The position numbers and the translations under genes were made by a program. 64,000 bases of DNA from Xestospongia bergquistia (lineage: Eukaryota > Porifera > Demospongiae > Haplosclerida > Petrosiidae), in contig OZ014425.1 in assembly GCA_963965975.1 (NCBI GenBank), positions 2,369,501 through 2,433,500 on the forward strand, written 5' to 3'. Of the stretch, positions 6,306 through 62,266 are shown piece by piece. Positions within the stretch are counted from its first letter, which is position 1; each line of letters begins with the position of its first letter. The notes below the pieces were generated by a model. That model did not search any database, was not told where the DNA came from, and saw only the letters and a program-made list of their open reading frames with translations.

Positions 6306-6790
6306 GTTATGAGGTAGGTGGAGTCATATGATATTGCATGTATGTTGTCTTTATTAATTCCTTAATTAAAAAAGTATACTAATTACAAATAATAATAAAA
6401 GAGTGAACATACTACATATGTTTTTGTTTGTTATAAATATTTACATTGTACTATACAAATTGAAATAATTGCCACATTACAATACAAGTTTCAACACTCC
6501 TTTACTTTACATTTGTGTATATATATTTATAAATCATTTAAACTGATATCTGTCATAGCTGTTAAATTAACTTATCATTAGATATCTAATTACTGTTCCA
6601 GGAGTGTTATTGTACATGTCCACTGATTTACATATATTTTCATATCAGAATAGTTTTGAATATTATATGAGGAAGGACAAAACTTCATGGAAATGTAAAC
6701 CTGTTTGACTTGTTAGACAGTTTTGGCAACATTATAAACATCTTCCTAATCTATAAGAAATGGAATTTGTAAATGTATTTTAGATGAATG
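6306..6790. other. No recognisable gene
   Basis: AT-rich spacer between the duplicated block and an exon-like ORF. Its 3' end carries a short acaaacaaacag-type low-complexity stretch (6815-6840). Nothing else is supported. Confidence 0.5.
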
Positions 6791-32800: not shown

Positions 32801-33075
32801 CCTTGACTTAAAATTCAATGAGCTTTAGTCTTGTCTACCTTGACTTTAAATTCAATGAGCTTTAGCCCTTAGTTTAGTGCTTTTGTAGTATCAGCTTGTA
32901 ATAGTTTGTGCTAGACAGCATTACTTCGTTTTAGCAAGCAATGAATCATGACTTTATTTAGCAAGACAGAAGAAGGAACTGGATTTCATTCAGCCAAATC
33001 ATTCGACAGTGTTCTCTGCAGTAAATCCGAGACAATAATGTTCCTTGGTACAGACCAAGGCTAAATAAATACAGT
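29877..33075. repeat. 1.66 kb tandem duplication within the array
   Basis: 29877-31542 and 31543-33075 are nearly identical apart from short indels. This gives the twin ORFs at 30095 and 31753. Confidence 0.85.
31044..31270. repeat. 38 bp subrepeat cluster inside the array spacer
   Basis: About six copies of the unit tctaccttgactttaaattc plus aatgagctttagcccta. Similar clusters sit at 32680-32870, 35180-35330, 35610-35705, 41505-41660 and 42930-43080. This is a second level of tandem repetition built from the spacer of the large unit. Confidence 0.85.
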
Positions 33076-35925: not shown

Positions 35926-36068
35926 TAGCCTCGTACCCAGACTTTTGCGATAGAAAAGAAACCCTGGTCATTACTGCTTGTGCTTTCGCGTAATTATTGA
36001 CATCACATTGACACGCAAACAGTAGTTACCAGGCTCTTTTCTATTGCGAAAGCTTGTCTACAAGGCTA
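35926..36068. mobile_element. Short (143 bp) TAGCCTCGTACCCAG-type MITE
   Basis: The left end tagcctcgtacccagac and the right end cttgtctacaaggcta are imperfect inverted repeats. The right flank attttgtac matches atttagtac at the left flank of the copies at 4895 and 49782, suggesting a 9 bp target duplication at this site. It has only the terminal regions. Confidence 0.75.
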
Positions 36069-39000: not shown

Positions 39001-40015
39001 CCAGATTCCATTCAGCCAAATCATTTGACAGTGTTCTCTGCAGTAAATCGAAGACAATAATGTTCCTCGCTATAACGCAAGGGCAAGTAAATACAGTGAA
39101 GGGTGTTAATATATATAGCTTGAGTTTAAATTCAATGAATTTTAGCCCTAAGTTTAGTGGATTTGTAGTATCAGCTTGCAATGGTTTGTACTAGAAATGT
39201 TAGACAGCATAACTTCATTTTGGCACCCAATCATTCACTGTTTTATTTCTAAAGGGCTGTTTAGCAAGACAGAAGAAGGAACCAGATGCATTCAGCCAAA
39301 TCATTTGACAGTGTTCTCTGCAGTAAATCCAAGGCAATAATGTCCCTCGCTATAGCCCATGGGCAAGTAAATACAGTCAAGTGTGTTAGTATATATAGCT
39401 TGAGTTTAAATTCAATGAGCTTTAGCCCTTTGTTTAGTGCATTTGTAGTATTCCGTTGTAATATTTTGTGGCAGAAATCTTAGACAGTATTACTTCATTT
39501 TACAAACCATGGAGTCATGACTTTATTTCTGCAGGGTTGTTTAGCAAGACAGAAGAAGGAACTGGATTCCATTCAGCCAGGTCATTTTACAGTGTTCTCT
39601 GCAGTAAATCCAAGACAATAATGTTCCTCGCTATAGCCTAAGGGCAAGTAAATACAGTGAAGTGTGTTAGTATATATAGCTTGACTTTAAATTCAAGGAG
39701 CTTTAGCCCTTAGTTTAGTTCATCGTTACTTCGTTTTAGCAGCCAAAGATTCATGACTTTATTTCACAGGGCTGTTTAGCAAAATAGAAGAAGGAACCAG
39801 ATTCCATTCAGCCAAATCACTTGGCAGTGTTCTCTGCAGTAAATCCAAAAAATAATGTTACTCGCTATAGCCCAAGGGCAAGTAAATACAGTGAAGTGTG
39901 TTAGTATGTATAGCTTGACTTTAAATTCAATGAGCTTTACTAAATGAAGGTGCTAAAACTGTGATATTTGTGAGTGACACAGCAATAATTATCATTAAAT
40001 ATTCTTTATTATTAG

Positions 40016-40140
40016 GTGGATTCTGATATACCTGGTATTTCAGTTGAGATCGTAGTGGAGGCATTTCAATTACTGGAAGAGCAAAAGCAGATGTAATTCT
40101 TGTACCAGCTGTTGCCGGAGGATATTATACAGTTGGAGCC
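40016..40140 (+). repeat. Second exon-like sequence type in the array (four copies)
   Basis: A block starting ggtggattctgatatacctg occurs at 40016, 40737, about 47790 and 52285. In one plus frame it reads RSGGISITGRAKADVILVPA then VAGGYYTVGASYKTK, which looks like genuine protein but is not a family I recognise. At 40140 and 47917 it is fused abruptly to the end of the 113 nt core (ggagcctcgctatagccc), while the copies at 40737 and 52285 continue into tcatataagactaaag. The shared junction shows that the fused form was itself duplicated. Confidence 0.6.
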
Positions 40141-41199
40141 TCGCTATAGCCCAAGGGCAAGTAAATACAGTCAAGGGTGTTAGTATATATAGGTTGACTT
40201 TAAATTTAATGAGCTTTAGCCCTTAGTTTAGTGCATTTGTTATCTTAACTAAGCCTGTAATAAGTCATTTTAAAACATATCTTGTCTCTGTAATATATAC
40301 ACTTTAATAACCAGTATATTTAGTACAATGTAGGAAGTATGAATAATATTAGTCAAGTGTTTTTAAAAGATTTTTAACCCCATCGTGTCTTCTTTGGTAT
40401 TAGTATCAGCTTGTAAATATTTGTACAAGAAATCTTAAACAGCATTACTTTGTTTTAGCAACGAATCATTCACAACTTTATTTCCACAGGGCTGTTTAGC
40501 AAAACAGAAGAAGGAACTAGATTCCATTCAGCCAAATCATTTGACAGTGTTCTCTGCAGTAAATCCAAAACAATAATGTTACTCGCTATAGCCCAAGGGC
40601 AAGTAAATACAGTCAAGTGTGTTAGTATGTATAGCTTGACTTTAAATTCAATGAGCTTTACTAAATGAAGGTGCTAAAACTGTGATATTTGTGAGTGACA
40701 CAGCAATAATTATCATTAAATATTCTTTATTATTAGGTGGGTTCTGATATACCTGGTATTTCAGTTGAGATCGTAGTGGAGGCATTTCAATTATTGGAAG
40801 AGCAAAAGCAGATGTATTTCTTGTACCAGCTGTTGCTGAAGGATATTATACAGTTGGAGCCTCATATAAGACTAAAGATAACATCAGTAAGCTTGTCACG
40901 ATGTGTACTAGAAATCTTAGCGTTTTTGCAACCAATGAGTACGACTTTATTTCTGCAGGGCTTTTAACCCCCATTGTGTCTTCTTTGGTATCAGTATCAG
41001 CTTGTAAACGTTTGTACTAGAAATCCTAGACAGCATTACTTCGTTTTAGCAACCAATCATTCACAACTTCATTTCTACAGGTCTGTTTACCAAAACAGAA
41101 GAAGGAACTAGTTTCCATTCAGCCAAATCATTTGACGGTGTTCTCTGCAGTAAATCCAAGACAATAATGTTCCTCACTATAGCCCAAGGGCAAGTAAAT

Positions 41200-44040
41200 A
41201 CAGTGAAGTGTTACTATATATAGCCTGAGTTTAAATTCAATGAGCTTTAGCCCTTAGTTTAGTGCATTTGTAATCACATTGTAATATTTTGTGCTAGAAA
41301 TCTTAGACAGTATTACTTTGTTTTAGCAAACATGGAGTCATGACTTTATTTTAGCAGGGTTGTTTAGCAAGACAGAAGAAGGAACTGGATTCCATTCAGC
41401 AAAATCTTTTGACAGTGTTCTCTGCAGTAAATCCGAGACAATAATGTTCCTCGCTACAACCCAAAGGCAAATAAATAGTGTCAATACTTCATGTGCATTA
41501 GTATATCTACCTTCACTTTAAATTCAATGAGCTTTATCCCTATCTACCTTGACTTTAAATTCAATGAGCTTTAGCCCTATCTACCTTGACTTAAAATTCA
41601 ATGAGCTTTAGTCTTATCTACGTTGACTTTAAATTCAATGAGCTTTAGCCCTTAGTTTAGTGCTTTTGTAGTGTCAGCTTGTAATAGTTTGTGCTAGACA
41701 GCATTACTTCGTTTTAGCAAGCAATGAATCATGACTTTATTTAGCAAGACAGAAGAAGCAACTGGATTTCATTCAGCCAAATCATTTGACAGTGTTCTCT
41801 GCAATAAATCAGAGACAATAATGTTCCTCGGTACAGCCCAAGGGTGAATAAATAAATACAGTCAAGTGTCAATACTTCATGTGCGTTAGTATATCTAGCT
41901 TGACTTTAAACTTATTGTGTCTACTTTTGTATCAGTATCAGCTTGTAGTGGTTTCTACTAGAAATCTTAGACTACATTGGTTTATTTCATTTTAGCAATC
42001 AATGTGTCAGGACTTTACTTCTGCAGGGCTGTGGAGCAAGACTGAAGAAGGAACTGTATTCCATGCAGGGAAGTCATTTGACAGTGTTCTCTGCAGTAAA
42101 TCCAAGACACTAACTTTTCTTGCTACAGCCCATGGGCCAATAAATACAGTCAGAGTATCAATACTTCGTTTGTGTTAGTATATCTAGCTTGACTTTAAAT
42201 TCAATGAGCTTTAGCCCTTAGTTTTAGTGCATTTGTTATCTCTAACTAAGCCTGTAATAAGTCATTTTAAAACATATATCTCACCTTTCCTTGTCTGTGT
42301 AATATATACACTTTAATAACCAGTATATTTAGTACAATGTAGCAAGTCTGAATAATATTAGTCAAGTGTTTTTAAAAGGCTTTTTACCCCCATTGTGTCT
42401 GCTTTTGTATCAGTATCAGCTTGTAAAGGTTTGTACTAGAAATCTTAGACAGCATTACTTCGTTTTAGCAACCAAAGATTCATGACTTTATTTCTACAGG
42501 GCTTTTAGCAAGATATAAGGAGGAACCAGATTCCATTCAGCCAAATCATTTGACAGTGTTCTCTGTAGTAAATCCAAGACAATAATATTCCTCGCTATAG
42601 CCCAAGGGCAAGTAAATACAGTCAAGTGTGTTAGTATATATAGCCTGAGTTTAAATTCAATGAGCTTTAGCCCTTAGTTTAGTGCATTTGTAATCACGTT
42701 GTAATATTTTGTGCTAGAAATCTTAGACAGTATTACTTTGTTTTAGCAAACATGGAGTCATGACTTTATTTTAGCAGGGTTGTTTAGCAAGACAGAAGAA
42801 GGAACTGGATTCCATTCAGCAAAATCTTTTGACAGTGTTCTCTGCAGTAAATCCGAGACAATAATGTTCCTCGCTACAACCCAAAGGCAAACAAATAGTG
42901 TCAATACTTCATGTGCATTAGTATATCTACCTTCACTTTAAATTCAATGAGCTTTATCCCTATCTACCTTGACTTTAAATTCAATGAGCTTTAGCCCTAT
43001 CTACCTTGACTTAAAATTCAATGAGCTTTAGTCTTATCTACGTTGACTTTAAACTCAATGAGCTTTAGCCCTTAGTTTAGTGCTTTTGTAGTGTCAGCTT
43101 GTAATAGTTTGTGCTAGACAGCATTACTTCGTTTTAGCAAGCAATGAATCATGACTTTATTTAGCAAGACAGAAGAAGGAACTGGATTTCATTCAGCCAA
43201 ATCATTTGACAGTGTTCTCTGCAATAAATCAGAGACAATAATGTTCCTCGGTACAGCCCAAGGGTGAATAAATAAATACAGTCAAGTGTCAATACTTCAT
43301 GTGCGTTAGTATATCTAGCTTGACTTTAAACTTATTGTGTCTACTTTTGTATCAGTATCAGCTTGTAGTGGTTTCTACTAGAAATCTTAGACTACATTGG
43401 TTTATTTCATTTTAGCAATCAATGTGTCAGGACTATACTTCTGCAGGGCTGTGGAGCAAGACTGAAGAAGGAACTGTATTCCATGCAGGGAAGTCATTTG
43501 ACAGTGTTCTCTGCAGTAAATCCAAGACACTAATTTTTCTTGCTACAGCCCATGGGCCAATAAATACAGTCAGAGTATCAATACTTCGTTTGTGTTAGTA
43601 TATCTAGCTTGACTTTAAATTCAATGAGCTTTAGCCCTTAGTTTTAGTGCATTTGTTATCTCTAACTAAGCCTGTAATATATCTCACCTTTCCTTGTCTG
43701 TGTAATATATACACTTTAATAACCAGTATATTTAGTACAATGTAGCAAGTCTGAATAATATTAGTCAAGTGTTTTTAAAAGGCTTTTTACCCCCATTGTG
43801 TCTGCTTTTGTATCAGTATCAGCTTGTAAAGGTTTGTACTAGAAATCTTAGACAGCATTACTTCGTTTTAGCAACCAAAGATTCATGACTTTATTTCTAC
43901 AGGGCTTTTAGCAAGATAGAAGGAGGAACCAGATTCCATTCAGCCAAATCATTTGACAGTGTTCTCTGTAGTAAATCCAAGACAATAATGTTCCTCGCTA
44001 TAGCCCAAGGGCAAGTAAATACAGTCAAGTGTGTTAGTAT
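41200..44040. repeat. 1.42 kb tandem duplication within the array
   Basis: About 41200-42620 and 42620-44040 repeat with an offset near 1420 bp and very few differences, for example ttagcagggt at 41351 and 42771. Larger blocks at 36.3-40.6 kb and 43.4-48.4 kb also correspond in order, so the array has higher-order structure. Confidence 0.8.
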
Positions 44041-47000
44041 ATATAGCTTGAGTTTAAATTTAATGAGCCTTTAGTTTATAGCATTTGTAGTATCACATTG
44101 TAATAGTTGTGCTAGAAATCTTAGACAGTATTACTTTGTTTTAGCAACCAATGAGTCATGACTTTATTTCTGCAGGGTTGTTTAGCAAGAGAGAAGAAGA
44201 AACTGGATTCCATTCAGCCAAAACTTTTTACGGTGTTCTCTGCAGTAAATCCAAGACAATAATGTTTTTCGCTATAGCCTAAGGGCAAGTAAATACTGTA
44301 AAGTGTATTAGTATATATAGCTTGACTTTAAATAAATGAGCTTTAGCCCTTAGTTTAGTGCATCGTTACTCCGTTTTAGCAACCAAAGATTCATAACTTT
44401 ATTTCTACAGGGCTGTTTAGCAAGATAGAAGAAGAAACCAGATTCCATTCAGCCAAATCATTTGACAGTGTTCTCTGCAATAAATCCAAGACAATGTTCC
44501 TTGCTCTAGCCCAAGGGCAAGTAAATACAGTCAAATGTGTTAGTATATGTAGATTCAATGAGCTTTAGCCCTTAGTTTATTGCATTTGTAGTATCACGTT
44601 GTAATAGTTTGTGCTAAAAATCTTAGACAGTATTACTTCGTTTTAGCAACCAATGAGCAAGATAGAAGAAGGAACTGGATTCCATTCAGCCAAGTCATTT
44701 GACAGTGTTCTCTGCAGTAAATCCGAGACACTAATGTTCCTTGCTACACCCCGTGGGCAAATAAATATAGTCAGTGTATCAATACTTCATTTGTGTTAGT
44801 ATATCTACCTTGACTTTAAATTCAATGAGCTTTAGCCCTTTGTTTTAGTGCAGTTGTTATCTTAACTAAGCCTGTAATAAGTCATTTTAAAACAATATGT
44901 CACCTTTTCTTGTCTCTGTAATATATACACTTTAATAACCGGTATATTTAGTACAATGTAGCAAGTCTGAATAATATTAGTCAAGTGTTTTTAAAAGAAG
45001 CTAGATTCCATTCAGCCAAATCATTTGACATTCTTCTCTGCAGTAAATGCAAGACAATAATGTTCCTTGCTATAGCCCATGGGGAAGTAAATGCAGTCAA
45101 GTGTGTTAGTGTATATAGCTTGAGTTTAAATTCAATGAGCTTTAGCCCTTAGTTTAGTGCATTTCTAGTATCACGTTGTAATAATTTGTGCTAGAAATCT
45201 TAGACAGTATTACTTTGTTTTAGCAAGCAATGAGTCATGACTTTATTTCTGCAGGGTTGTTTAGCAAGACAGAAGAAGGAACAGGATTCCATTCAGCCAA
45301 GTCATTTGACAGTGTTCTCTGCAGTAAATCCAAGACACTAATGTTCCTCGCTACAGCCCATGGGCAAATATCTAGCTTGACTTTAAATTCAATGAGCTTT
45401 AGCCCTTAGTTTAGTGCATTTGTTATCTTAACTAAGCCTGTAATAAGTCATTTTAAAACATATGTCACATTTCCTTGTCTCTGTAATATATACACTTTAA
45501 TAACCAGTATAAAAGGGTTTTTATCCCCATTGTGTCTTCTTTCGTAACAGTATCAGCTTGTAAAGGTTTGTACTAGAAATCTTATACAGCATTACTTCTT
45601 CAGTAGCAACCAATGAGTCACGACTTTGTTTCTACAGGGCTGTTTAGCAAGATAGAAGAAGGAACCAGATTCCATTCAGCCAAATCATTTGACAGTGTTC
45701 TCTGCAGTAAATCCAAGACAATAATGTTCCTCGCTATAACGCAAGGGCAAGTAAATACAGTGAAGAGTGTTAGTATATATAGCTTGAGTTTAAATTCAAT
45801 GAATTTTAGCCCTAAGTTTAGTGGATTTGTAGTATCAGCTTGCAATGGTTTGTACTAGAAATGTTAGACAGCATAACTTCATTTTGGCACCCAATCATTC
45901 ACTGTTTTATTTCTACAGGGCAAGACAGAAGAAGAAACCAGATGCATTCAACCAAATCATTTGACAGTGTTCTCTGCAGTAAATCCAAGACAATAATGTC
46001 CCTCGCTATAGCCCATGGGCAAGTAAATACAGTCAAGTGTGTTAGTATATATAGCTTGAGTTTAAATTCAATGAGCTTTAGCCCTTTGTTTAGTGCATTT
46101 GTAGTATTCCGTTGTAATATTTTGTGGCAGAAATCGTAGACAGTATTACTTCATTTTACAAACCATGGAGTCATGACTTTATTTCTGCAGGGTTGTTTAG
46201 CAAGACAGAAGAAGGAACTGGATTCCATTCAGCCAGGTCATTTTACAGTGTTCTCTGCTGTAAATCTAAGACAATAATGTTCCTCGCTATAGCCCAAGGG
46301 CAAGTAAATACAGTCAAGTGTGTTAGTGCATCGTTACTTCGTTTTAGCAACCAAAGATTCATGACTTTATTTCTACAGGGCTGTTTAGCAAGATAGAAGA
46401 AGAAACCAGATTCCATTTAGCCAAATCATTTGACAGTGTTCTCTGCAGTAAATCCAAGACAATAATGTTCCTCGCTATAGCCTAAGGGCAAGTAAATACA
46501 GTGAAGTGTGTTAGTATATATAGCTTGACTTTAAATTCAAGGAGCTTTAGCCCTTAGTTTATTGCATTTGTAGTGTCACGTTGTAATAGTTTGTGCTAGA
46601 AACCTTAGACAGTATTACTTTGTTTTAGCAACCAATGAGTCATAACTTTATTTCTGCAGGGTTGTTTAGCAAGAGAGAAAAAGGAACTGGATTCCATTAA
46701 GCCAAAATATTTGACGGTGTTCTCCGCAGTAAATCCAAGACAATAATGTTTCTCGCTATAGCCAAAGGGCAAGTAAGTACTGTGAAGTGTATTAGTATAT
46801 ATAGCTTGACTTTAAATAAATGAGCTTTAGCCCTTAGTTTAGTGCATTGTTACTTTGTTTTAGCCAAAGGGCAAGTAAATACAGTGCTTGACTGTAAACT
46901 CAATGAGCTTTAGTCCTTAGTTTAGTCCATTTGTAGTATGAACTTGTAATATTTTGTACTAGAAATCTTAGATAGGATTACTTCGTTTTAGCAACCAATC

Positions 47001-49781
47001 ATTCACGACTTTATATTTACAGGGCTGTTTAGCAAGACAGAAGTAGGAACCACATTCCATTCAGCCAAATCATTTGACAGTGTTCTCTGCAGTAAATCCA
47101 AGACAATAATGTTCCTCGCTATAGCCCAAGGGCAAGTAAATACAGTCAAGTGTGTTAGTGTATATAGCTTGAGTTTAAATTCAATGAGCTTTAGCCCTTT
47201 GTTTAGTGCATTTGTAGTATCAGCTTGTAATGGTTTGTACTGGAAATGTTAGACAGCATTACTTCATTTTAGCATCCAATCATTCACGACTTTATTTCTA
47301 CAGGACTGTTTAGCAAGACAGAAGAAGGAACCAGATTCCATTCAGCCAAGTCATTTGACAGTGTTCTCTGCAGTAAATCCAAGACAATAATCTTCCTCGC
47401 TATAGCCCAAGGGCAAGTAAATACAGTAAAGTGTGTTAGTATATATAGCTTGACTTTAAATTCAATGAGCTTTAGCCCTTTGTTTAGTTCATCGTTACTT
47501 CGTTTTAGCAGCCAAAGATTCATGACTTTATTTCTACAGGGCTGTTTAGCAAAATAGAAGAAGGAACCAGATTCCATTCAGCCAAATCATTTGACAGTGT
47601 TCTCTGCAGTAAATCCAAAACAATAATGTTACTCGCTATAGCCCAAGGGCAAGTAAATACAGTGAAGTGTGTTAGTATGTATAGCTTGACTTTAAATTCA
47701 ATGAGCTTTACTAAATGAAGGTGCTAAAACTGTGATATTTGTGAGTGACACAGCAATAATTATCATTAAATATTTTATCTTTATTATTAAGTGGGTTCTG
47801 AGATACCTGGTATTTCAGTTGAGATCATAGAGGAGGCATTTCAATTACTGGAAGAGCAAAAGCAGATGTAATTCTTGTACCAGCTGTTGCCGGAGGATAT
47901 TATACAGTTGGAGCCTCGCTATAGCCCAAGGGCAAGTAAATACAGTCAAGGGTGTTAGTATATATAGGTTGACTTTAAATTTAATGAGCTTTAGCCCTTA
48001 GTTTAGTGCATTTGTTATCTTAACTAAGCCTGTAATAAGTCATTTTAAAACATATATGTCACCTATCCTTGTCTCTGTAATATATACACTTTAATAACCA
48101 GTATATTTAGTACAATGTAGCAAGTATGAATAATATTAGTCAAGTGTTTTTAAAAGATTTTTACCCCCATCGTGTCTTCTTTGGTATTAGTATCAGCTTG
48201 TAAATGTTTGTACAAGAAATCTTAAACAGCATTACTTTATTTTAGCAACGAATCATTCACAACTTTATTTCCACAGGGCTGTTTAGCAAAACAGAAGAAG
48301 GAACTAGATTCCATTCAGCCAAGTCACTTGACAGTGTTCTCTGCAGTAAATCCAAGAGAATAATGTTCCTTGCTATAGCCCAAGGGCAAGTAAATACAGT
48401 CAAGTGTGTTAGTATATATAGCTTGACTTTAAATTCAAATTCAATGAGCTTTAGCCCTTAGTTCAGCGCATCGTTACTTCGTTTTAGCAACCAAAGATTC
48501 ATGACTTTCTTTCTACAGGGCTGTTTAGCAAGATAGAAGAAGGAACCAGATTCCATCCAGCCAAATCATTTGACAGTGTTCTCTGCAGTAAATCCGAGAC
48601 ACTAATGTTCCACGCTACAGCCCATTAGGAAATAAATACAGTCAGTGTATCAATACTTCATTTGTGTTAGTATATCTAGCTTGACTTTAAATTTAATGAG
48701 CTTTAGTCCTTAGTTTTAGTGCATTTGTTATCTTAACTAAGCCTGTAATAAGTCATTTTAAAACATATGTCACGTTTCCTTGTCTCTGTAATATATACAC
48801 TTTAATAACCAGTATAAAAGGCTTTTTACCCCCATTGTGTCTTCTTTGGTTTCAGTATCAGCTTGTAAAGGTTTGTACTAGAAATCTTAGACAGCATTAC
48901 TTCTTTAGTAGCAAATGGGTCAGGACATTACTTCTGCAGGGCTGTTTAGCAAGACAGAAGAAGGAACTGGATTCCATGCAGCCAAGTCATTTGACTGTCT
49001 CCTGTGTAGTAAACGCTACAACGAAAGGGAAAGACAGTAGTAACAAATACGTTTACGTAAGTAGTACTCCATGTGAGTTAGTACATGTAGCTTAATTTCA
49101 AATTCAGTCAGACACACAAAAACTAACCCTGTCATTTGAAAACATATCTGACTGTTTCTTTTTTCTCTAATATATACTTTAGTAACCAGTATATTTAGTG
49201 CAATGTAGGAAATCTGAATAATATTAGTAAAGTGTATTTGAAAGGCTTTTTACTCCCATTGTGTCATTGTTCCATTGTGCATTAGTATATCTAGCTTGAC
49301 TTTAAATTCAATGAGCTTTAGCCCTTAGTTTTAGTGCATTTGTTATCTTAACTAAACCTGTAATATGTCATTTTATAATGTAATACCGCACCTATAACCA
49401 GTATATTTAGTACAATATAGGAAGTCTGAATAATATTAATCAAGTGTTTTTAAAAGGCTTTTTTTCCCCCATTGTGACTGCTTTGGTATCAGTATCAGCT
49501 TGAAAAGGTTTGTACTAGAAATGGAAAGATAGTAGTAACAAATACAGTCAGAGAAGCAGTACTCCATGTGCTGTAGTATATGTAGCATGACTTTTAAATT
49601 CAGTGAGCTTTAGTCCTTAGTTTTAGTGCATTTGTTATCTTAACTAAGCCTATTGTAAGTCTTTTTGAAATATAATATCTCACTAGTCCTTTTCTCTGTA
49701 ATATAAAGACTTTAGTAACCAATATATTTTGTACAATGTAGCAAGTCTCAATAAAATTAGTCGAATGTTTTTATTTAGTAC

Positions 49782-50406
49782 TAGCCTCGTACCCAGACTT
49801 TCGCGGTAGAAAAGAGCCTGGTCATTACTGCTTGCGCATGCACATAATTATTGACATCATAATGACACATTTTAAATTAAATGACGAATTGATGGGTCGG
49901 GTTTATATTGATGACGTTTTTTTCACTACACGAGTTTAAGCACGAGTTTGTCAGTAATGCAGAGATTTATTTAGTGGAAGCCGAAAGAGGAAAGAGCAAC
50001 AAATTTGTTCAGTGCTGTTGGAATGTGAAATAATTGGGGTTCGTGAATAACTGCTTTACTTGATGTTATTGTTTCTGGACATGATATGATAGTCTCTCTT
50101 CATATATTTTTATGAAGTGCAAACTTCGAATTGTGTCTCAAGAGAAATCTGTTGTAGACCTAGAGGAATTCAAGCAGTTGGTTCATAACCTAGCTTGTAA
50201 TCCATCATGAAAGGGAGGATTTTGAAACACAAACTCTTTCCAAAACCAGTTGGTAACCACACGAAGACATCTTTTCTGTTATGTATAGCTACAATAGAAA
50301 AGATCTGCTCTTTTTTAAAAGATAGATTTGGCTTTCCTAGCTGATTTATAGCATATAATAGAGCAGCAGAAAAGTTACTACAAGTAGCTATCACCAATAA
50401 TCTAAA
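49782..50406. mobile_element. TAGCCTCGTACCCAG-type TIR element carrying a helicase fragment (right end missing)
   Basis: It begins at tagcctcgtacccagact directly after atttagtac. The inner sequence matches, in reverse orientation, the complete elements at 57257-57746 and 59852-60410. Array sequence resumes near 50410 without a right terminal repeat. Confidence 0.7.
50170..50397 (-). pseudogene. RecQ-like DNA helicase fragment (motif I region)
   Basis: The 75-codon frame includes LSFKKEQIFSIVAIHNRKDV, then FVWLPTGFGKSLCFKILPFM. LPTGFGKS is a Walker A motif of the RecQ type, where the lysine and serine bind ATP phosphates, and the preceding KKEQ fits the Q-motif region. Only this short N-terminal piece of a helicase domain is present, without DEAH or later motifs. 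It lies inside a TIR element and equivalent pieces occur in three other copies, so it looks like a captured or relict gene fragment and not a working helicase. Confidence 0.75.
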
Positions 50407-53398
50407 GTACAGTGGTTTGTACTAGAAATCATAGACTGCATTACTTCATTTTAGCAATCAATGTGTCAGGACTTTACTTCTGCAGGGCTGTTTAACAAGA
50501 CAAAAGAAGGAACTGGATTCCAACAGGCAAGCATTTGACAGTGTTCTCTGCAGTAAATCCGAGACAATGAAATTCCTTGCTAGAACAGAAGGAAAAAACA
50601 GTAGTAACAAGTACTGCCAGTCAATGTAGCAAGTCTCAATAATAATATTCAAGTGTTTTTAAAAGGCTTTTTACCCTGATTGTGTCTGCTTTGGTATCAG
50701 TATCAGCTTGTAAAGGTTTGTACTAAAAATCTTAGACAGCATTACTTCATTTTAGCAACCAATCTGTCAGGACTTTACGTCTGCAGAGCTGTGGAGCAAG
50801 ACAGAAGAAGGAACTGTATTACATGCAGCCAAGTGATTTGACAGTCTTGTCTGCAATAAATCTTAGACGATGATGTTACTCGCTAAAACAAAAGAAATTG
50901 AGTCAGTTTTAGCCCTTAGTTTTAGTGCATCTGATAAGTCATTTGGAAACATATCTGACTATTCCTTTTCTCTAATATATAAACTTTAGTAACCAGTATA
51001 TTTAGTACAATGTAGGAAGTCTGAATAATATTAGTCAATTGTTTTATCACTACAAGCCTATTTATCCCCATTATGTCTACCATTATATGAGTAGTTAGTC
51101 AAGTGTTTTTATTTAGTACAAGCCCTTTTAAACCTATTGTGTCTACTTTTGTATCAGTATTAGCTTGTAATGTTTTGTCACAACTTTATTTCTGCAGGGC
51201 TGTTTACCCTCACTGTCTCTACGTTTGTGTCAGTATCAGCTTGTGCTGTATTATTGGTTGGTTATTGTATTGTGTATACTTATGAATATGATTATCATGT
51301 GTAGACTTCCTGTCCCATAAGTTATCTATGCACTTTATATTATAAAATATGCATATTGTAGAGATTTTATTGAGTCTTGAGTATTGTCCGATATCATATG
51401 TGAATGTGTTTGTAATGGTTATACTAGAAATCTTAGACTGCATTACTTCATTTTAGCAATAATGTTCCTCGCTATAGCCAAAGGGCAAGTAAATACAGTC
51501 AAGTGTGTTAGTATATATAGCTTGACTTTCAATTCAATGAGCTTTAGCCTTTAGTTTAGTGCATCTTTACTTCGTTTTTGCCACCAAAGATTCATGACTT
51601 TCTTTCTACAGGGCTGTTTAGCAAGATAGAAGAAGGAACCAGATTCCATTCAGCCAAATCATTTGACAGTGGTCTCTGCAGTAAATCCAAGACAATAATG
51701 TTCCTCGCTATAGCCCATGGGCAAGTAAATACAGTCAGTGTATCAATACTTCATTTGTGTTAATATATCTAGCTTGACTTTAAATTCAATGAGCTTTAGT
51801 CCTTAGTTCTAGTGCATTTGTTATCTTAACTGAGCCTGTAATAAGTCATTTTAAAACATATATCACGTTTCCTTGTCTCTGTAATATATACACTTTAATA
51901 ACCAGTATAAAAGTCTTTTCACCCCCATTGTGTCTTCTCTGGTATCAGTATCAGCTTGTAAAGGTTTGTAATAGAAATCTTAGAAGCATTACTTCTTTAG
52001 TAGCAACCAATGAGTCACGACTTTATTTCTACAGGCTGTTTAGCAAGACAGAAGAAGGAACTGGATTCCATTCAGCCAAAACATTTGACGGTGTTCTCTG
52101 CAGTAAATCCAAGACAATAATGTTCCTTGCTATAGCCTAAGGGCAAGTAAATACAGTGAAATGTGTTAGTATATATAGCTTGACTTTAAATTCAATGAGC
52201 TTTACTAAATGAAGCTGCTAAAATTGTGATATTTGTGAGTGACACAGCAATAATTATCATTAAATATTTTATCTTTATTATTAGGTGGGTTCTGATATAC
52301 CTAGTATTTCAGTTGAGATCGTAGTGGAGGCATTTCAATTATTGGAAGAGCAAAAGCAGATGTAATTCTTGTACCAGCTGTTGCTGAAGGATATTATACA
52401 GTTGGAGCCTCATATAAGACTAAAGATAACATCAGTAAGCTTGTCACGATGTGTACTAGAAATCTTAGCGTTTTCGCAACCAATGAGTACGACTTTATTT
52501 CTGCAGGGCTTTTAACCCCCATTGTGTCTTGTTTGGTATCAGTATCAGCTTGTAAAGGTTTGTACTAGAAATCCTAGACAGCATTACTTCGTTTTAGCAA
52601 CCAATCATTCACAACTTCATTTCTACAGGTCTGTTAACCAAAACAGAAGAAGGAACTAGTTTCCATTCAGCCAAATCATTTGACGGTGTTCTCTGCAGTA
52701 AATCCAAGACAATAATGTTCCTCACTATAGCCCAAGGGCAAGTAAATACAGTGAAGTGTGTTAGTATATATAGCTTGAGTTTAAATTCAATGAGCTTTAG
52801 CCCTTAGTTTAGTGCATTTGTAATCACGTTGTAATATTTTTGCTAGAAATCTTAGACAGTATTACTTTGTTTTAGCAAACATGGAGTCATGACTTTATTT
52901 TAGCAGGGTTGTTTAGCAAGACATAAGAAGGAACTGGATTTCATTCAGCCAGGTCATTTGACAGTGTTCTCTGCAGTAAATCCAAGACAATAATGTTCCT
53001 GGCTATAGCCCAAGGGCAAGTAAATACAGTCAAGCATATTAGTATATATAGCTTGACTTTAAATTCAATGAGCTTTAGCCCTTCGTTTAGTTCATCATTA
53101 CTTCGTTTTAGCAGCCAAAGATTCATGACTTTATTTCTACAGGGCTGTTTAGCAAGATAGAAAAAGGAACCAGATTCCATTCAGCCAAATCATTTGACAG
53201 TGTTCTCTGCAGTAAATCCAAGACAATAATGTTACTCGCTATAGCCCAAGGGTAAGTAAATACAGTGAAGTGTGTTAGTATATATAGCTTGACTTTAAAT
53301 TCAATGAGCTTTACTAAATGAAGGTGCTAAAACTGTGATATTTGTGAGTGACACAGCAATAATTATCATTAAATATTTTATCTTTATTACTAGGTGGT

Positions 53399-53826: not shown

Positions 53827-55475
53827 CTAATAATTGTGAAATGCTAGGAAACAGTCACTATCTGGTTTTCCTGTGTGGCATAGGTTTTTTTTGCACATTT
53901 GGCATTCCCACTGTGTCAACTTCAATTGTTTTCCCTTCCTGTAGCAATGAGAGCATTTGCTTCGCTTTGCTGCCTTCATTGGGAAGTGTAGAGTTGGTAC
54001 TGAGGGATGAATAGCAGAGGAAGGGCGACCTCTAACTTTTCGACCGTTATAATTCCCAATTAGCTGTTTTGCCAACTCTGACCTGAAGTCAACGTATTGA
54101 TGGTATACATGCCCTGTTGATGGTACATACCTGTGAAGGATGTAGGCATTTGCCAAAGTGAGTTCAAATAAAAACCAAAAGATGTATTTGTAGAATTTGT
54201 GGCTTTTCAGTCGTACACAGTAGTAGTGTCGTAGCTGGTCATTGCAATCAACCCCTCCCATATACTTGTTGTAGTCAATAACATTCAAGGGGCAGGTGAA
54301 AGTTTTTCTTGTGCCATCCTTTTGTTTTCTGGTTACTGTGCCTTCTTCATTTCTGCAGTTGGTAGAGAGAACACTTACTGTTTTGTTGTCTTGCCACAAT
54401 GAGAAAATGCAATTTTCTTTTTCAATTGTCTTGTAATCTCCCCTCTCTGGTAGTCCCTTCTTAAGAAAAGGCTTAAATCCATCAGGATAGCCTACTCGAT
54501 TTGATCGAATGGTGCCGCATGCATAGATCGAGTCCTTTAGAAGGTCATTGAAGAGCTGTACACTGGTGAAAAAGTTATCGCAGTACACTTTATAATGTTT
54601 GCCAACATGATTCCTGGTTAGATCTTTCACAACCCGTTCATGTATATGTGTTTCCGACCTGCCTCCCACTTTGCCAAGGTACACCTGAAATTGAGAAACA
54701 TAGCCATTTATAGCATATGCTCTCATCCAGACTTTTATCCCTCTCTTTGTAGGTTTTTTGGGAAGATATTGCTTGAGAGAGGATCTTCAATTGAAGGGGA
54801 TCATGGCCTCATCAATTGAGCTGGCACTGTGAGGATTATATATCTCCAAAAACCTCTCTGATATGGAAGTTATCACCGGTCGGATTTTCCAAAGACGATC
54901 ATAGCTAGGATCTGTTCGCTGAACTGAATAGGATTCATTCTGCGTGAAATGGAGAAACCGAGAGATTTCCAAGAATCGTCTCAGAGATATCCTGTCTGCT
55001 ACTGGGGAGTTATAGTAAGTTGGATCTAATTTCCAGTAATCATAAAGGCATGGTAATTGATTGATTCCCATTAGAATCATGAATCCAAAATACGCTTGAA
55101 TTTCAAGCGGTGTTACTTGGTCAAATCTCTCGTAGGCATCAGTTGATAGCACTTCTCGAGCGTATACATTAGTTTGCTCAGCAATCATATTGATTAGGGT
55201 ATGAGAGAGGGGAACTGTAGGTTCACATGGAACAGTACAGGGAAGGACAGTAGTAGGCCTGTCAGTAGTAAGGTTAGTTTTAGTTGACTCAAAAAGGATT
55301 CACCTGACTCAAATTCTAATGGTTCATCAATCTCCATAGCATCACAACTATAGAATTAGAAAAGACAAGCATCAAAGAATTATTTGGAGTGTTGGTATAA
55401 TAACAGAAGCAGTAGACATGGTTATAATAATTCTTTCTTTTGATCTTACCTTTCCAGATTTTCGTCGGTGTCCAT
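53827..55475 (-). pseudogene. piggyBac-type transposase (DDE_Tnp_1_7), one stop and one frameshift
   Basis: Exon 1 is 55475-55450 (MDTDENLE) and a 102 nt GT-AG intron (55449-55348) joins it in phase to exon 2. The reading then needs one extra base at the A run 55291-55295, after which it is open to 54790. A TGA at 54787-54789 replaces a residue between EAMIPFN and RSSLKQYLPKKP; the same frame then runs to the stop at 53827. Catalytic-type aspartates are seen in SIDEAMIPFN, VYCDNFFTSVQLF and KYMGGVDCNDQLRHYY. The C-terminus has the Cys-rich zinc-binding pattern (CSHC, CQMC, KNLCHTG). Length and order match the family. Such enzymes cut at TTAA sites. It may be a recently silenced transposon or a sequencing-level error case. 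Confidence 0.9.
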
Positions 55476-55655: not shown

Positions 55656-56640
55656 ATACAATGTCTGAATAACATTAGTCAAGTTTTTCTATTTAGTACA
55701 AGCCTATTTTCCTCCATTGTCTCAACTTTTGTTTCAGTATGAGCTTGTAATGGTTGGTACTAGAGGTTTGTACTAGAAATCTTAGACAGCATTACTTCAT
55801 TTTAGCAACCAATGGGTACTGTATTATTATTTGGTTATTGTGTTGCATATAGTTATGAATATTATTATCATGTGTGTACCATAAGTTATCTATGCAACAT
55901 ACTTTATAAAATATGAATATTGTGTTATTTAGTCTTGAGTTGTGTGCTGTATCATATGTGAATGTGTTTATACAAGTTATTAACTAGTCATTTTAAAACA
56001 TAATATCTCACTAGTCCTTTTCTCTGTAAGGTATAGGCTTTAGTAATCAGTATATTTTGTGCATTACTTCATTTTAGCAACCAGACTTTATATCCTTTCA
56101 GCCAAGTCAATCCAAGACAATGATGTTACTTGCTACAGCCCAAGGGCAAATAAATACGGTCAGAGTAGCGGTACTCCATGTGTATTAGTATATCGTGTAT
56201 TTTTGTATGAGTGTCAGCTTATGTTTTTGTACTTGTAAGTACTTTACCTTTGCAGGGCTGTTAAGCAAGACAGAATAAGGAACTGGATTCCATACAGCCA
56301 AACCATTTGACAGTGTCCTCTGTAGTAAATCTCAGATAATGATGTTCTTGACTACAACAAAAGGGAAAGACAATAGTAACAAATATGGTCAGAGAAGCAG
56401 TACTCCACGTCTGTTAGTATATCAAGCTTGACTTTTAAACTAGTCCTTTTCTCTGTGATATATTGACTTTAGTAAGAAGTATATTTAGTACTATGTTGCA
56501 AGTCTGAGTAATATTCATTAAGTAAATATGCTGGTTACTAAAGTATGTTGCATTCCATTTAGCCAAGTCATTTGGCAGTCTTCCCTGCAGTATTTCTGAG
56601 CGAATGATGTTCCTCGGTACATGGTAAAGTAATGTATTAC
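55656..56640 (+). repeat. Outlying degenerate units of the 113 nt core array
   Basis: Array sequence resumes at aatacaatgtctgaataac and continues with decayed units, including cores near 56250-56370 and 56545-56625. This is the other side of the piggyBac-bearing insertion, more worn than the main array. Confidence 0.75.
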
Positions 56641-56860
56641 ATCGTGATAGACTCAAGTAACATGATTTGTTGTCCTTCTAGGTATACGGATATCAGTGTA
56701 ATGTTACATTCATATCGTATAACTTAACAATATTACCTTATTTTAAACATACACACACACACATACATGCAGATGAAGGAAATAACAATTGGTAAGTATA
56801 TTAACAATAAAAATGTATAAACATTAACTGGTATTTTGACATAAACTAATACTACAAATA

Positions 56861-56897
56861 TAATACTACCAAATGTAATACTGCCAAATGTAATACT
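56861..56897. repeat. Left inverted repeat flanking the small-unit array
   Basis: The 37 nt taatactaccaaatgtaata plus ctgccaaatgtaatact matches the reverse complement of 61544-61580 at 36 of 37 positions. It is itself made of about two and a half aatactgccaaatgt units. Confidence 0.85.
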
Positions 56898-57256
56898 GCA
56901 AATGTAATATTGTCATTAACATATTTTAACGTCAGTGTAAAATATATTATTCCTTCTCGTTTCTCTTTCATTACCCTAGATTCGCTGTACATCAGGACTA
57001 GGCTCAAGACATCCTCTGTCTCAAAAGAGTCTAGGGAGTAAGTTAAGACCATACAGTACTAGACTACTAGTGTACATTGATTCATAATACTTCAGGCTCA
57101 AGACTCAAGACATTCCTATACTTCGAAGAGTCTGAAGAGTAAGTTAACTGAATACAATACTAGTGTACATTAATTCATAATTAATTATTTCTGTTAATTT
57201 GTTTTTTATTACAATAGCTTCACTGGACATCAGGATCAAGGATCAAGACATTTCTC

Positions 57257-57746
57257 TAGCCTCGTACCCAGGCTTTTGCGATAGGAAAGAAAGCCTGGTA
57301 ACTACTATTAGCGCATGCATTTAATTTCCACAGATTCCTTTGAAAGTAGTATACTCTAGGAATCCTCCGTCAACTATTGATGTCAAAATTCCTTTAATCA
57401 CAATGTGAGACTATTTGTAGTACTGATAGAAAGTATTCTTCTGCTCTACTCTATGCTAATGATGGAAAAGATGTTTTCGTGTGGTTTTCTATTCCAACAA
57501 CACTGAACATGTTTGTTGCTCTTTTTGCTTTCATTAAGTATCTACAGAACCAACAAACTCAACTAGCCATGCCTAAACTCAGTAGTGAATGAAACATCAT
57601 CAATAGAAACCCAGCCATTTACTTGTCATTTAATTCTAAATCTTGCCATTATGATGTCAGTATATTGCGTAAATTACAATAAACGCATGCACAAGCAGTA
57701 GTTAGCAGGCTTTCTTTTCTATTGCGAAAACCTGGGTACAAGGCTA
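57257..57746. mobile_element. Complete TAGCCTCGTACCCAG TIR element, 490 bp
   Basis: The ends are tagcctcgtacccaggct and, inverted, agccttgtacccaggtt. The 10 bp gacatttctc flanks it on both sides (57247-57256 and 57747-57756). The length of the target duplication and the long ends fit Mutator-like elements, by inference. The inside carries a plus-strand relic (GKDVFVW near 57475) of the RecQ-like fragment. It is inserted in a core of the small-unit array. Confidence 0.85.
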
Positions 57747-59851
57747 GACATTTCTCCATCTCAAGGACTCTTGGGAGTAAGTCAGTGCTAGTATAAATTT
57801 ATTCATGATGCATTATTAATCTCTTTTATTACAATAGATTCGCTGGTTGTCAGAGGTCAAGGATGAAGACATTCCTCTATCTCGATGAGTTTGTCAAGTA
57901 AGTTAACAGAATACAATACTAGGTTACATTGATTCATGAAACACGATTACTCTTAACTTCTTTTATTACTATAGCTTGACTTGATGTCAGTATCAAGGCT
58001 CAAGACATTCCTATATCTCAAAGAGTCTGAAGAGTAAGTTAACTGAATACAATCATAGTGTACATTAATTCATAAGTCTTAATTCATAATACATTAATTC
58101 ATAATACTCTTAATCTCTTTTTCATTACTATAGCTTTGTTCGACGTCAGGCTCAAGGCTCAAGAAATTCATCTGAAGAGTCTAGGGAGTAAGGCTCAAGG
58201 CATTCATGTATCTCGATAGGGAGTAAGATCATACAGTACTAGTATAAAGTAATTCATAATGCATCATTACCTTTAATATCTCTTTTATTGCTATGGCTTC
58301 GCTGGATATTGGGATCAAGAATCAAGACATTCTGCTATCTTAAAGACACTGGGGAGTAAGTTCACAGAATACAGTAGTAGTGTACATTAAGTCATAATCC
58401 ATCATTACTCTTACTTTCTCTTTTATTACTGCATATTACTCTTAATTTTTCTTTTATTACTGTAGCTTCACTGGACTTCAGGATCAAGGCTTGAGACATT
58501 CCTCTATCACAAAGAGTCTCACTCTGTGGAGTAAGTTAACAGCATACAGTACTAGTGTACATTAATTCATAATACCCATTACTCATAATACACATTATTA
58601 TTACTATAGCTTCGCTGGATATCAGTATCAAGAATCAAGACATTCTGCTATCTCAAAGACACTGGGGAGTAAGTTCACAGAATGCAGTAGTAGTGTACAT
58701 TAAGTCATAATACATCATTACTCTTACTTTATCTTTTATTACTGCATATTACTCTTAATTTCTCTTATATTACTGTAGCTTCACTGGACTTCAGGATCAA
58801 GGCTTGAGACATTCCTCTATCACAAAGAGTCTCACTCTGTGGAGTAAGTTAACAGCATACAGTACTAGTGTACATTAATTCATAATACCCATTACTCATA
58901 ATACACATTATTATTACTATAGCTTCGCTGGATATCAGTATCAAGAATCAAGACATTCTGCTATCTCAAAGACACTGGGGAGTAAGTTCACAGAATGCAG
59001 TAGTAGTGTACATTAAGTCATAATACATCATTACTCTTACTTTATCTTTTATTACTGCATATTACTCTTAATTTCTCTTATATTACTGTAGCTTCACTGG
59101 ACTTCAGGATCAAGGCTTGAGACATTCCTCTATCACAAAGAGTCTCACTCTGTGGAGTAAGTTAACAGCATACAGTACTAGTGTACATTAATTCATAATA
59201 CCCATTACTCATAATACACATTATTATTACTATAGCTTCGCTGGATATCAGTATCAAGAATCAAGACATTCTGCTATCTCAAAGACACTGGGGAGTAAGT
59301 TCACAGAATACAGTAGTAGTGTACATTAAGTCATAATACATCATTACTCTTACTTTATCTTTTATTACTGCATATTACTCTTAATTTCTCTTATATTACT
59401 GTAGCTTCACTGGACTTCAGGGTCAAGGCTCAAGACATTCCTCTATCACAAAGAGTCTGTGGAGTAAGTTAACAGCATACAGTACTAGTGTACATTAATT
59501 CATAATACCCATTACTCATAATACACATTACTCTCAATTTCTATTTTATTACTATAGCTTCACTGGATATTGCGATCAAGAATCAAGACATTCTGCTATC
59601 TCAAGACGCTGGGGAGTAAGTTAACAGAATACAGTACTGGTATAAATTAATTGATAATGCATCTTATCACTGTAGCTTCATTTGATGTCTGGCTCAAGTC
59701 TCAAGACATTCCTATACTTCGAAGACTCTGAAGAGTAAGTTAACTAAATACGATACTACTGTACATTAATTCATAATATAGCATAGTCTTAATTTGTGTT
59801 TTATTACAATAGCTTTGCTGGATGTCAGGATCAAGGATCAAGATATTTCTC

Positions 59852-60410
59852 TAGCCTCATACCCAGGCTTTCACGATAGAAAAGAAAGCCTGGTAACTAC
59901 TGTTTGTGCATGCATTTAATTTCCACAGATTTCTTTGAAACTAGTATACTCTATGAACCCTCCATCAACTATGACGTCAAAATTCCTTTACCCATAATAT
60001 GAGACTATTTGTATCACTGATATAAAGTTTTCTTCTCCTCTACTGTATGTTCTAAAGCTGCTAGCAATGCCAAATCTATTTCTTAAAAGGAGCAACTCTT
60101 GTTCATTGAAGCTATATATGATGGAAAAGATATTTTCGTGTGGTTTTGTATTCCGACAGCACTGAACAAATTTGTCGTTCTTTTTGCTTTCATTAAATCT
60201 CTGCAGAACCGACAAACTCAGCTAGACATGCCCAAACTCAGTAGTGAATGAAACGTCATCAATATAAACCTGACCCATTTACTTGTCATTTAATTTAAAA
60301 TGTTGTCATTATGATATGAACATATAACATAATTTACAATAATTAAGCGCATACACAAGCAGTAGTTACCAAGCTTTCTTTTCTATCGCGAAAGCCTGGG
60401 TACGAGGCTA
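59852..60410. mobile_element. Complete TAGCCTCGTACCCAG TIR element, 559 bp
   Basis: The same family as the 490 bp copy at 57257, with ends tagcctcatacccaggctt and, inverted, tagcctcgtacccaggctt. The flanks gatatttctc (59842-59851) and gacaattctc (60411-60420) match at 8 of 10. The inside keeps more of the helicase relic on the plus strand (PNLFL, KEQLLFIEAIYDGKDIFVW near 60070-60145), with a 1 nt deletion. Confidence 0.85.
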
Positions 60411-61543
60411 GACAATTCTCTATCTCAAAGACTTTTGGCAGTAAGTCAACAGCATTCAGTAGTCAGTACTAGTATGAAGTAATTCATTGCTCTTAATTTC
60501 TCTTGTATAACTGTAGCTTCGCTTGAAGTCAAGATAAAGGCTCAAGACATTCCTCTATCTGAAGATTCTGTGAAGTAAGTTAGCAGCATATAGTACTGGT
60601 GTACATTACTTAAAAAAGACATCATTACTCTTGATTTTCCTTTTATTACCATAGTTTCACTGGACATCATGATGAAGACTCAAGACATTCCTCTACCACA
60701 AAGAGTCTGTGGAGTAAGTTAACAGCACACAGTACTGGTGTGCATTAATTAATAAGTCTTAATTCATAATACATTAATTCATAATACTCCTAATCTCTTT
60801 TTCATTACTATAGCTTTGCTCGACATCAAGCTCAAGGCTCAAGAAATTCATCTGAAGAGTCTAGGGAGTAAGGCTCAAGGCATTTATGTATCTCGAAGAG
60901 TCTATGGAGTAAGATCATACAGTACTAGTATAAAGTAATTCATAATGCATCATAACCTTAAATATATCTCTTTTATTGCTATAGCTTCACTGGATATTGG
61001 GATCAAGAATCAAAGACATTCTGCTATCTGTCAAAGACGCTGGGGAGTAAGTTCACAGAATGCAGTAGTAGTGTACATCATTACTCTTACTTTCTCTTTT
61101 ATTACTGCATATTACTCTTAATTTCTCTTTTATTACTGTAGCTTCACTGGACTTCAGGATCAAGGTCAAGACATTCCTCTATCACAAAGAGTCTGTGGAG
61201 TAAGTTAACAGCTTACAGTACTAGTGTACATAATTCATAATACTCATTACTCATAATACACATTACTCTCAATTTCTGTTTGATTACTATAGCTTCGCTG
61301 GATATCGGGATCAAGAGTCAAGATTTTCCACGATCTCAAAGATGCTGGGCAGTATGTTAACAGAATACAGTACTAGAGTACATTAATTCATAATGCATCT
61401 ATTAATGTAGCTTCGCTGGACTTGTGGATCAAGGCTCAAGACATCTGGATCAAGACTCAAGACAGACATTCCTCTATCTCAAAGAGCCTGGGCAGTAAGT
61501 TAACAACATACAGTAAATTTTGACAAGTAATCTAATGAGTGGT

Positions 61544-61580
61544 AGTATTACATTTGGCAGTGTTACATTTGGTAGTATTA
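61544..61580. repeat. Right inverted repeat flanking the small-unit array
   Basis: The reverse complement matches 56861-56897 at 36 of 37 positions. Together they enclose the 24-unit array and its two nested elements. Confidence 0.85.
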
Positions 61581-61782
61581 CATATTTATGATAAAATGGT
61601 GTGTCTGTATCTATACTACTCTATATATTGTACCCAATTATACAATTTGTAGTAGTCAGTAAAGGTAAGTATCGAGAATACAACTATAAAGGTGAGTATA
61701 TCTTCCAGAGAGAAAGCCGAGGAAGCCACAAGAGATTAGTTAGTCTGCTTTTGTGAGGGAAATGAGATTATGTAGAGCATTA

Positions 61783-61962
61783 ATGGGTGTGGCTATTGTG
61801 GCTTGATAATTGGGTGTGGTGCTTGCAGCTATGCATTAATTTCCTAGACTACCTGGAGCATTAATTAAAATATGAGGTGTGGTCAAAATAAACCACATCC
61901 AAAATATTTAATGGGTGTGGCTATCGAAGTTTGATGAGTGGGTGTGGTGCTTGCAGCCATGT
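61783..61962. repeat. Two-copy direct repeat rich in gggtgtgg
   Basis: The phrase gggtgtggctat, a spacer and then tgggtgtggtgcttgcagc occurs at 61783-61836 and again at 61915-61962. No gene was seen in it. Confidence 0.7.
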
Positions 61963-61979
61963 ACAGGTTTGTGAATATT

Positions 61980-62266
61980 GTTTACTGATTGTAGGATTCA
62001 TGCAGGTTTCGCCTAATCCACATTCGCCTACATTATTTTTAATACAGTATGGTTATGTTGACCATCTTAGATGTAACTACTCTGATCACGTTCCACAGGA
62101 ACCAGTCGAAGATTGGTATATATCAGACGAGTTCACTCCAAATCCAGATCCTCCTGCAGTTCAAATTGATATACCACCACTTGCACAAATTCGTCCTGTT
62201 GCTGTTCGCCATTCTACTTATGTACCTCGACCTGTTGATTGTTTTGCACCCCTGCATCAAGCTTGA
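61980..62266 (+). pseudogene. C-terminal tail of a Ty3/Gypsy-like Pol (integrase end)
   Basis: The open frame contains QYGYVDHLRCNYSDHVPQEP, like the RRHVDHLR sequence after the integrase of Gypsy elements, then an acidic and proline-rich tail (EFTPNPDPPAVQIDIPPLA) and YVPRPVDCFAPLHQA before the stop. A polypurine run (gagagggtagaa) and TGTGATAAC follow at once, as expected at the start of a 3' LTR. No protease, RT or catalytic integrase part lies upstream, so this is a truncated remnant. Confidence 0.5.

Follow-up and report, generated by a model that had tools for sequence, protein, structure and literature searches.

Mutually exclusive exons of insect Dscam form arrays with pairing introns. 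A tandem array of exon-like units was found in a stretch of 64,000 nucleotides (nt) of the sponge Xestospongia bergquistia (assembly GCA_963965975.1, contig OZ014425.1, denoted C15, positions 2369501-2433500; below, the window). It resembles Dscam in having many similar short exons in a row and complementary intron sequences. However, no coding phase is kept across the loci read, and the complementary arms show no locus-specific match.

The foldback transposon Tetris of Drosophila virilis contains tandem TIR-220 repeats that grew into kilobase satellite-like arrays, favoured by heterochromatin (PMC4079207). The sponge array is similar in two respects: tandem repeats within a dispersed element grew to satellite-like arrays, and their number varies among dispersed copies (here 1, 2, 3, 16 and 26 units). 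On the other hand, the Tetris repeats lie in terminal inverted repeats, whereas the sponge unit lies between inverted minisatellites, the family homology continues outside both arms, and the unit carries constrained splice signals.

Genes of human segmental duplications contain internal tandem repeats, on average four 30-bp units, with RNA support (PMC2812944). The common feature is that repeat number differs among paralogues, altering the exon-intron structure; in the sponge, each unit, about 138-150 bp long, comprises an entire exon-like core, and the units occur in up to tens of copies and are known from DNA alone. Islands of complex DNA in satellite-rich regions are also a feature of the retroelement islands of Drosophila centromeres (PMC6516634). 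The difference is that in the sponge one kind of island (two measured, 72 and 59 kb) recurs on eight contigs, with centromere identity being only a candidate assignment. In a limited search, no paper was recognised on sponge centromere satellites or such exon arrays, and no wider claim is made.

Structure of the array

The array arose by an increase in the copies of a single unit, about 138-150 bp long, which is part of a repeat or gene-like family that is dispersed in the genome and occurs in clusters. Within this unit the splice signals change most slowly, a point that the preliminary description of the window did not foresee. Each unit consists of an exon-like core, a donor, a short intron-like spacer and the next acceptor, the cores being bounded by AG (acceptor) and GTAAGT (donor). 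A profile built from strict units retrieved 29 pieces from the window, which were grouped by eye into 26 units. The features of the locus are as follows.

56961-61505, plus strand: 26 units in tandem (grouping by eye), of which 20 are full, 3 have no 5' part, 2 are interrupted by the nested element and 1 is internally duplicated
Starts at 57089, 58190 and 60869: units without the 5' part
57201+57735 and 59796+60405: units split by the nested element
61398+61440: unit with an internal duplication
58595-59475, plus strand: most homogeneous stretch, 59-nt and 65-nt cores alternating, within a 313-bp higher-order repeat at 58230-59663
56773-56791, plus strand: mini-exon-like stretch of 19 nt, ATGAAG..AATTG, between CAG and GTAAGT
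56847-56909, plus strand: left minisatellite, built of 15-mers (TAATACTACCAAATG) in the orientation opposite to that of the right one
61540-61583, plus strand: right minisatellite (TGGTAGTATTACATT), complementary to the left one
56621-56960, plus strand: left flank, homologous to the dispersed family; homology to C12 begins at 56621
61506-61990, plus strand: right flank, homologous to the C12 family member
57256-57743, no strand assigned: nested element with terminal inverted repeats, splitting one unit (ends approximate)
59852-60411, no strand assigned: second copy of the nested element, at the equivalent place of the duplicated block (ends approximate)
57040-58400, plus strand: internal duplication, block A
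59615-61080, plus strand: internal duplication, block B

The donor GT is intact in 20 of the 20 full units and the acceptor AG in 19 of them, the unit at 58278 carrying GG. This agrees with the preliminary description, which had counted about 24 exon-like cassettes between splice sites. The usual core length given there, 59 nt, is indeed the commonest one but does not form a majority: the full units have cores of 59 nt (9 units), 58 (4), 65 (3), 54 (2), 60 (1) and 62 (1). Tandem Repeats Finder gives periods from 119 to 313 across the array, plus short sub-repeats, and the repetition is well above chance (e.g. 4.6 copies at period 313 with 94% matches). Blocks A and B each hold one copy of the nested element. 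The 19-nt mini-exon was found in all five loci read at that part (the window, C12, C7, C8 and C2); in C2 its acceptor is TAG and its donor GC.

Dispersed family

With at most three mismatches, a 30-base core pattern has 334 matches in the genome vs 0 for the control; the five exact matches are all on C12. The C12 locus has the same flanks, mini-exon and inverted 15-mers as the window copy, and its array contains 16 units at period 138; 15 of the cores measure 59 nt and the remaining one 35 nt. The C2 copy has a single unit, sitting between inverted minisatellites, with flanks as in the window copy. The C7 copy has two units, after which the homology ends, and the C8 copy has three, the first being separated from the left repeats by approximately 3 kb of inserted DNA. 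The numbers of units in the copies read are thus 1 (C2), 2 (C7), 3 (C8), 16 (C12) and 26 (window). Since these differ at an equivalent place of the family, the arrays grew, or shrank, repeatedly there. A satellite derived from one exon had been among the earlier suggestions, and as to origin the matching flanks around one, two, three and 16 units bear it out.

The search with the C8 units gave 199 matches (38 of 235 candidates scored), and the spans below are among the best listed. They are known from match positions, and letters were read only for 470 bases of C4 (three complete cores).

C4 3999225-4012275: mapped array span of about 13 kb, long enough for about 95 units of 138 bp
C4 4174244-4179525: mapped array span
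C10 1928819-1934312, 1953749-1957631 and 1967255-1970026: mapped array spans
C5 6089545-6092671: mapped array span
C3 3828667-3831660: mapped array span
C8 5244057-5246150: mapped array span
C14 2360380-2362568: mapped array span

The left flank of the C12 copy has 40 matches (40 of 80 candidates scored). Among them, 23 lie outside the islands, the C12 locus itself included, at 75-100% identity, and 17 are island copies at 82% identity. Farther upstream, past the point where the window copy ceases to be homologous, the family region gave 45 matches (40 of 110 candidates scored), which lie at about 38 places and in no island cluster. Family copies form clusters, e.g. at C10 1.89-1.97 Mb, C5 5.99-6.17 Mb, C4 3.93-4.17 Mb and C7 5.76-6.12 Mb. 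Family homology extends at least 900 bp past the left arm and about 400-600 bp past the right arm. Thus a mobile element ending at the inverted repeats was rejected, as the homology continues beyond both arms.

The reading frames neighbouring the family copies vary: MATH domains in C12, nidogen-like and sushi in C7, fibrinogen C-terminal in C8 and VWD in C2; 4 of the 10 frames scanned had no Pfam match. The insert in the C8 copy contains frames that by eye are reverse-transcriptase-like (one frame tested, no Pfam match). Near the C2 copy (locus L040, 2682-4250, minus strand) there are long frames resembling by eye a hAT-type transposase, and the one tested (3162-4250) had no Pfam match.

Islands and satellite

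The island of complex DNA that holds the window copy has satellite arrays on either side, a setting shown on C15 only. In the 264 kb of C15 that were read, the 143-bp satellite is represented by 269 monomers of that length with a mean of 96% identity to the consensus. Among the positions listed, it takes up most of 2439171-2543253 and also occurs at 2365706-2367075 and from 2602279 onwards. Between these satellite arrays, C15 has two islands (72 and 59 kb) with stretches in common that reach 17 kb and are 97.7-99.9% identical. The array unit and the 143-bp satellite have no match longer than 9 bases.

The right flank of the array has 40 matches (40 of 140 candidates scored), forming one cluster per contig on eight contigs: C4 (5 matches), C5 (5), C6 (8), C7 (4), C10 (4), C11 (4), C13 (5) and C15 (5). 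By our arithmetic these clusters lie mid-contig, at approximately 33% to 64% along each contig. A 40-mer of the satellite has 5,689 exact occurrences, the positions listed being all on C4. On C14 there are four similar arrays approximately 130-170 kb apart, and other island segments match there too; judging by these matches, islands are probably present there, too. Eight further island copies (L029-L036), which enter none of the other tests, are 97.0-97.9% identical over the first 2.3-2.6 kb of the query (BLAST). The position and surroundings of the islands make them candidate pericentromeric DNA.

Conservation of splice signals

Parsimony changes were counted per column in 44 units from six loci (20 from the window, 15 from C12, 3 from C8, 3 from C4, 2 from C7 and 1 from C2). 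The columns of AG and GTAAGT average 0.75 changes, whereas core columns average 3.36, spacer columns 4.37 and all columns together 3.7 (P=0.0017 by block permutation and P=5e-5 by rank test). Of all eight-column stretches of the unit, the slowest is GTAAGTTA. In the window units alone, the splice columns have 0.25 changes vs 1.78 in the core and 2.43 in the spacer (P=2e-4), and none of the 161 six-column stretches is slower than the donor. The 24 units from the five loci outside the window also have slow splice columns (P=0.003; 5 of 161 stretches slower than the donor), and so do the nine units of C2, C4, C7 and C8 (P=0.014; 11 of 161). GT is lost in unit 2 of C7 and unit 1 of C4.

Coding potential of the cores

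The preliminary description noted that the cores 58923-58981 and 59405-59463 have no stop in any of the three frames, and this is the case. On the whole, 8 of the 20 full window cores are open in all three frames, and all three 65-nt cores carry a stop in one frame. When the two cores are shuffled with dinucleotides kept, all phases are open in 1.8% and 12.4% of 5000 trials, respectively; a C12 core under such shuffling is open in 14.4%. Openness of a single core is weak evidence, because among dinucleotide-preserving shuffles it is not rare. The expectation that serial splicing would stay open fails: the 20 joined full cores contain 7, 9 and 7 stops in the three phases. Thus of the original observation, the tandem array with splice-like ends stands, but the open frame does not hold array-wide.

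Between blocks A and B, with gapped columns (17 of them donor columns) left out, the differences amount to 44 of 343 sites (12.8%) in cores, 66 of 394 (16.8%) in spacers and 64 of 487 (13.1%) in the nested element. Cores diverging as fast as spacers, which had been named in advance as an argument against the exon cassettes, is nearly what is seen in this comparison. In the same alignment, donors are changed at 0 of 36 sites and AG at 1 of 12. With stops in every phase, core lengths of 54-65 nt and divergence like that of the nested element, the window copy was rejected as a coding cassette array, and the suggestion of a repetitive or variably spliced protein is not upheld for it. Protein coding in one fixed phase was rejected as well, as the three classes of core columns have 2.8, 3.5 and 3.8 changes (44 units), with no clear periodicity.

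Inverted repeats

Pairing energies of the intron preceding the first core and the one following the last were compared with 100 single-base shuffles per locus. In all four loci read on both sides, the introns can pair far better than shuffled ones: -125.7 vs a mean of -48.9 kcal/mol in C12, -107.4 vs -35.3 in C8, -65.1 vs -37.9 in C2 and -83.3 vs -42.0 in the window. However, arm pairing is not locus-specific, as between-locus pairs are equally strong (e.g. -192.2 for C8 left with C12 right). In RNA, such pairing of the inverted repeats might fold the array out as a loop.

Upstream of the C12 copy (locus L037, approximately 5650-6400) there is an imperfect palindrome of about 740 bp (65%), with the MATH-domain frames adjacent on the opposite strand. 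Inverted partner matches adjoin family copies on C7, C14 and C2 as well. A two-way promoter is one guess.

Origin of the array

The array probably expanded, in the manner of a satellite, from one unit of the dispersed family that was once spliced or still is; it would be carried as a passenger in amplified candidate pericentromeric islands and make no cassette protein. The unit would have begun as a real exon of a family transcript, and unequal exchange may then have multiplied it. Selection for splicing would have kept the splice signals while the exon content drifted, so that the exons were, or are, mainly non-coding, as in a leader or a long non-coding RNA. Finally, the island copy would have been amplified as a passenger, encoding no cassette protein. 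The surprising part of this scheme, as read from DNA, would be the constraint on splice signals without clear coding constraint.

Several observations weigh against it. The pyrimidine tract is changed at 11 of 72 sites (15.3%) between blocks A and B, that is, it shows no clear constraint. Over the 44 units, the cores are somewhat slower than the spacers (3.36 vs 4.37 changes per column, P=0.015), and therefore the exon content may not drift freely. In the nine units of C2, C4, C7 and C8, the would-be second codon position changes less than the other two (0.5 vs 1.45 and 1.42). In C12, joining the mini-exon to the whole set of 16 cores gives 313 open codons in the ATG phase. In ten units of C2, C4, C7, C8 and C12, the ratio of nonsynonymous to synonymous differences per site (pN/pS) in the mini-exon phase is 0.62 (95% interval 0.36-1.06), not significantly below 1. 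Only five loci were read outside the islands, one of them for just 470 bases. Finally, the profile was trained on units with splice signals; no window piece was missed for want of a donor, but bias is possible elsewhere.

Some of these points are what would be expected of a protein-coding family, in which 59-nt exons are spliced serially, the phase rotates through the three frames and produces a 59-residue super-repeat, C12 is live and the island copies are its dead relatives. All 15 full C12 cores have 59 nt, and dividing the 35-nt core by 3 leaves the same remainder; the phase open for 313 codons is the one set by the ATG mini-exon, the other two containing 4 and 3 stops; and the splice signals are constrained. 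On the other hand, C12 has only four stop-bearing cases of exon and phase, all of which by our estimate would be missed by chance in approximately 0.2 of trials, and thus its open phase is only weak evidence. Without the 35-nt core, the joined C12 cores contain 3 stops. The mini-exon phase has a stop in 5 of the 10 units of C2, C4, C7, C8 and C12 (C4 3 of 3 units read, C7 1 of 2, C8 at least 1 of 3), and pN/pS in the other two phases is 0.65 and 1.96. The C12 cores are slightly more variable than the C12 spacers (identity to consensus 0.964 vs approximately 0.98). We consider such a coding family improbable. A past coding role of the family is possible and a present one across the whole family unlikely; given the open phase of C12, some members may possibly make a spliced product.

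The strong pairing of the flanking introns in all four loci with both sides read could also mean that the intronic inverted 15-mers base-pair within the pre-mRNA and exclude the array as a loop; a single exon would then be selected, the whole array left out, or circular RNA formed by back-splicing. In C12, attaching a single core to the mini-exon leaves the frame open for 15 of the 16 cores. However, the arms of different loci pair as well as those of the same locus, which gives no sign of co-evolution and makes the arms shared minisatellites, and the window cores have mixed lengths; exon choice, skipping or circularisation of this kind thus seems quite doubtful. A combination is unlikely: the transcripts of the family would splice their tandem exons, of which a locus can have up to tens, with no translation of these; selection would maintain every donor and acceptor as the exon content drifts, pairing of the outer introns would give circular or skipped RNAs, and some members such as C12 may also encode a frame-rotating repeat protein. 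Another possibility, on which we would not bet but which deserves some weight, is a plain neutral satellite or a minisatellite internal to a transposon, with splice-like signals as an accident or relic and their conservation as a fluke or detection bias. It shares its origin with the expansion of a spliced unit, and the odds of the two overlap. Copy number varies widely, the cores evolve about like the spacers and the nested element, and a known transposon, Tetris, is reported to have seeded a satellite in a similar way (PMC4079207). However, the slowest stretch of the unit is precisely GTAAGTTA, and slow splice columns are seen in the window and at the other loci alike.

One genome spans the series from a single exon-like unit to long arrays and to amplification of one array in candidate pericentromeric islands, and the way in which an exon becomes satellite DNA is testable within this genome. 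Splice-site constraint without coding constraint, if confirmed by RNA, would define an unusual class of spliced, non-coding tandem exons.

Other features of the window

No known RNA families were found in the window at the gathering score, and the core pattern had 0 stretches each in bacterial or archaeal genome contigs and in viral contigs. A piggyBac-like transposase (Pfam DDE_Tnp_1_7), in two pieces with an in-frame stop between them, is encoded at 53827-55299 on the minus strand; the other 5 of the 7 window frames scanned had no Pfam match. The segment 20700-21300 is 99-100% identical in the islands and 96-98% identical on C1, C2, C4, C5, C10 and C12 (40 matches, 40 of 55 candidates scored), and probably is a dispersed element inserted in the island. 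The first satellite past the window (C15 2439236-2440971) runs in the opposite orientation and shares only about 80-85% identity with the main array.

Six short blocks of a tandem 37-bp repeat lie within 31047-43072 (at 31047, 32684, 35177, 35610, 41504 and 42924; 2.4 to 6 copies per block, 90-93% matches). Another tandem family occupies 36903-53313, with periods of about 188-281 and 491 bp and units that carry an acceptor-like TTTATTTCTACAG followed by GGCTGTTTAGC. A query of one such unit gave 581 matches (40 of 936 candidates scored), those listed being on C4, C5, C6, C7, C10, C13, C14 and C15. This family could be a second exon-like expansion.

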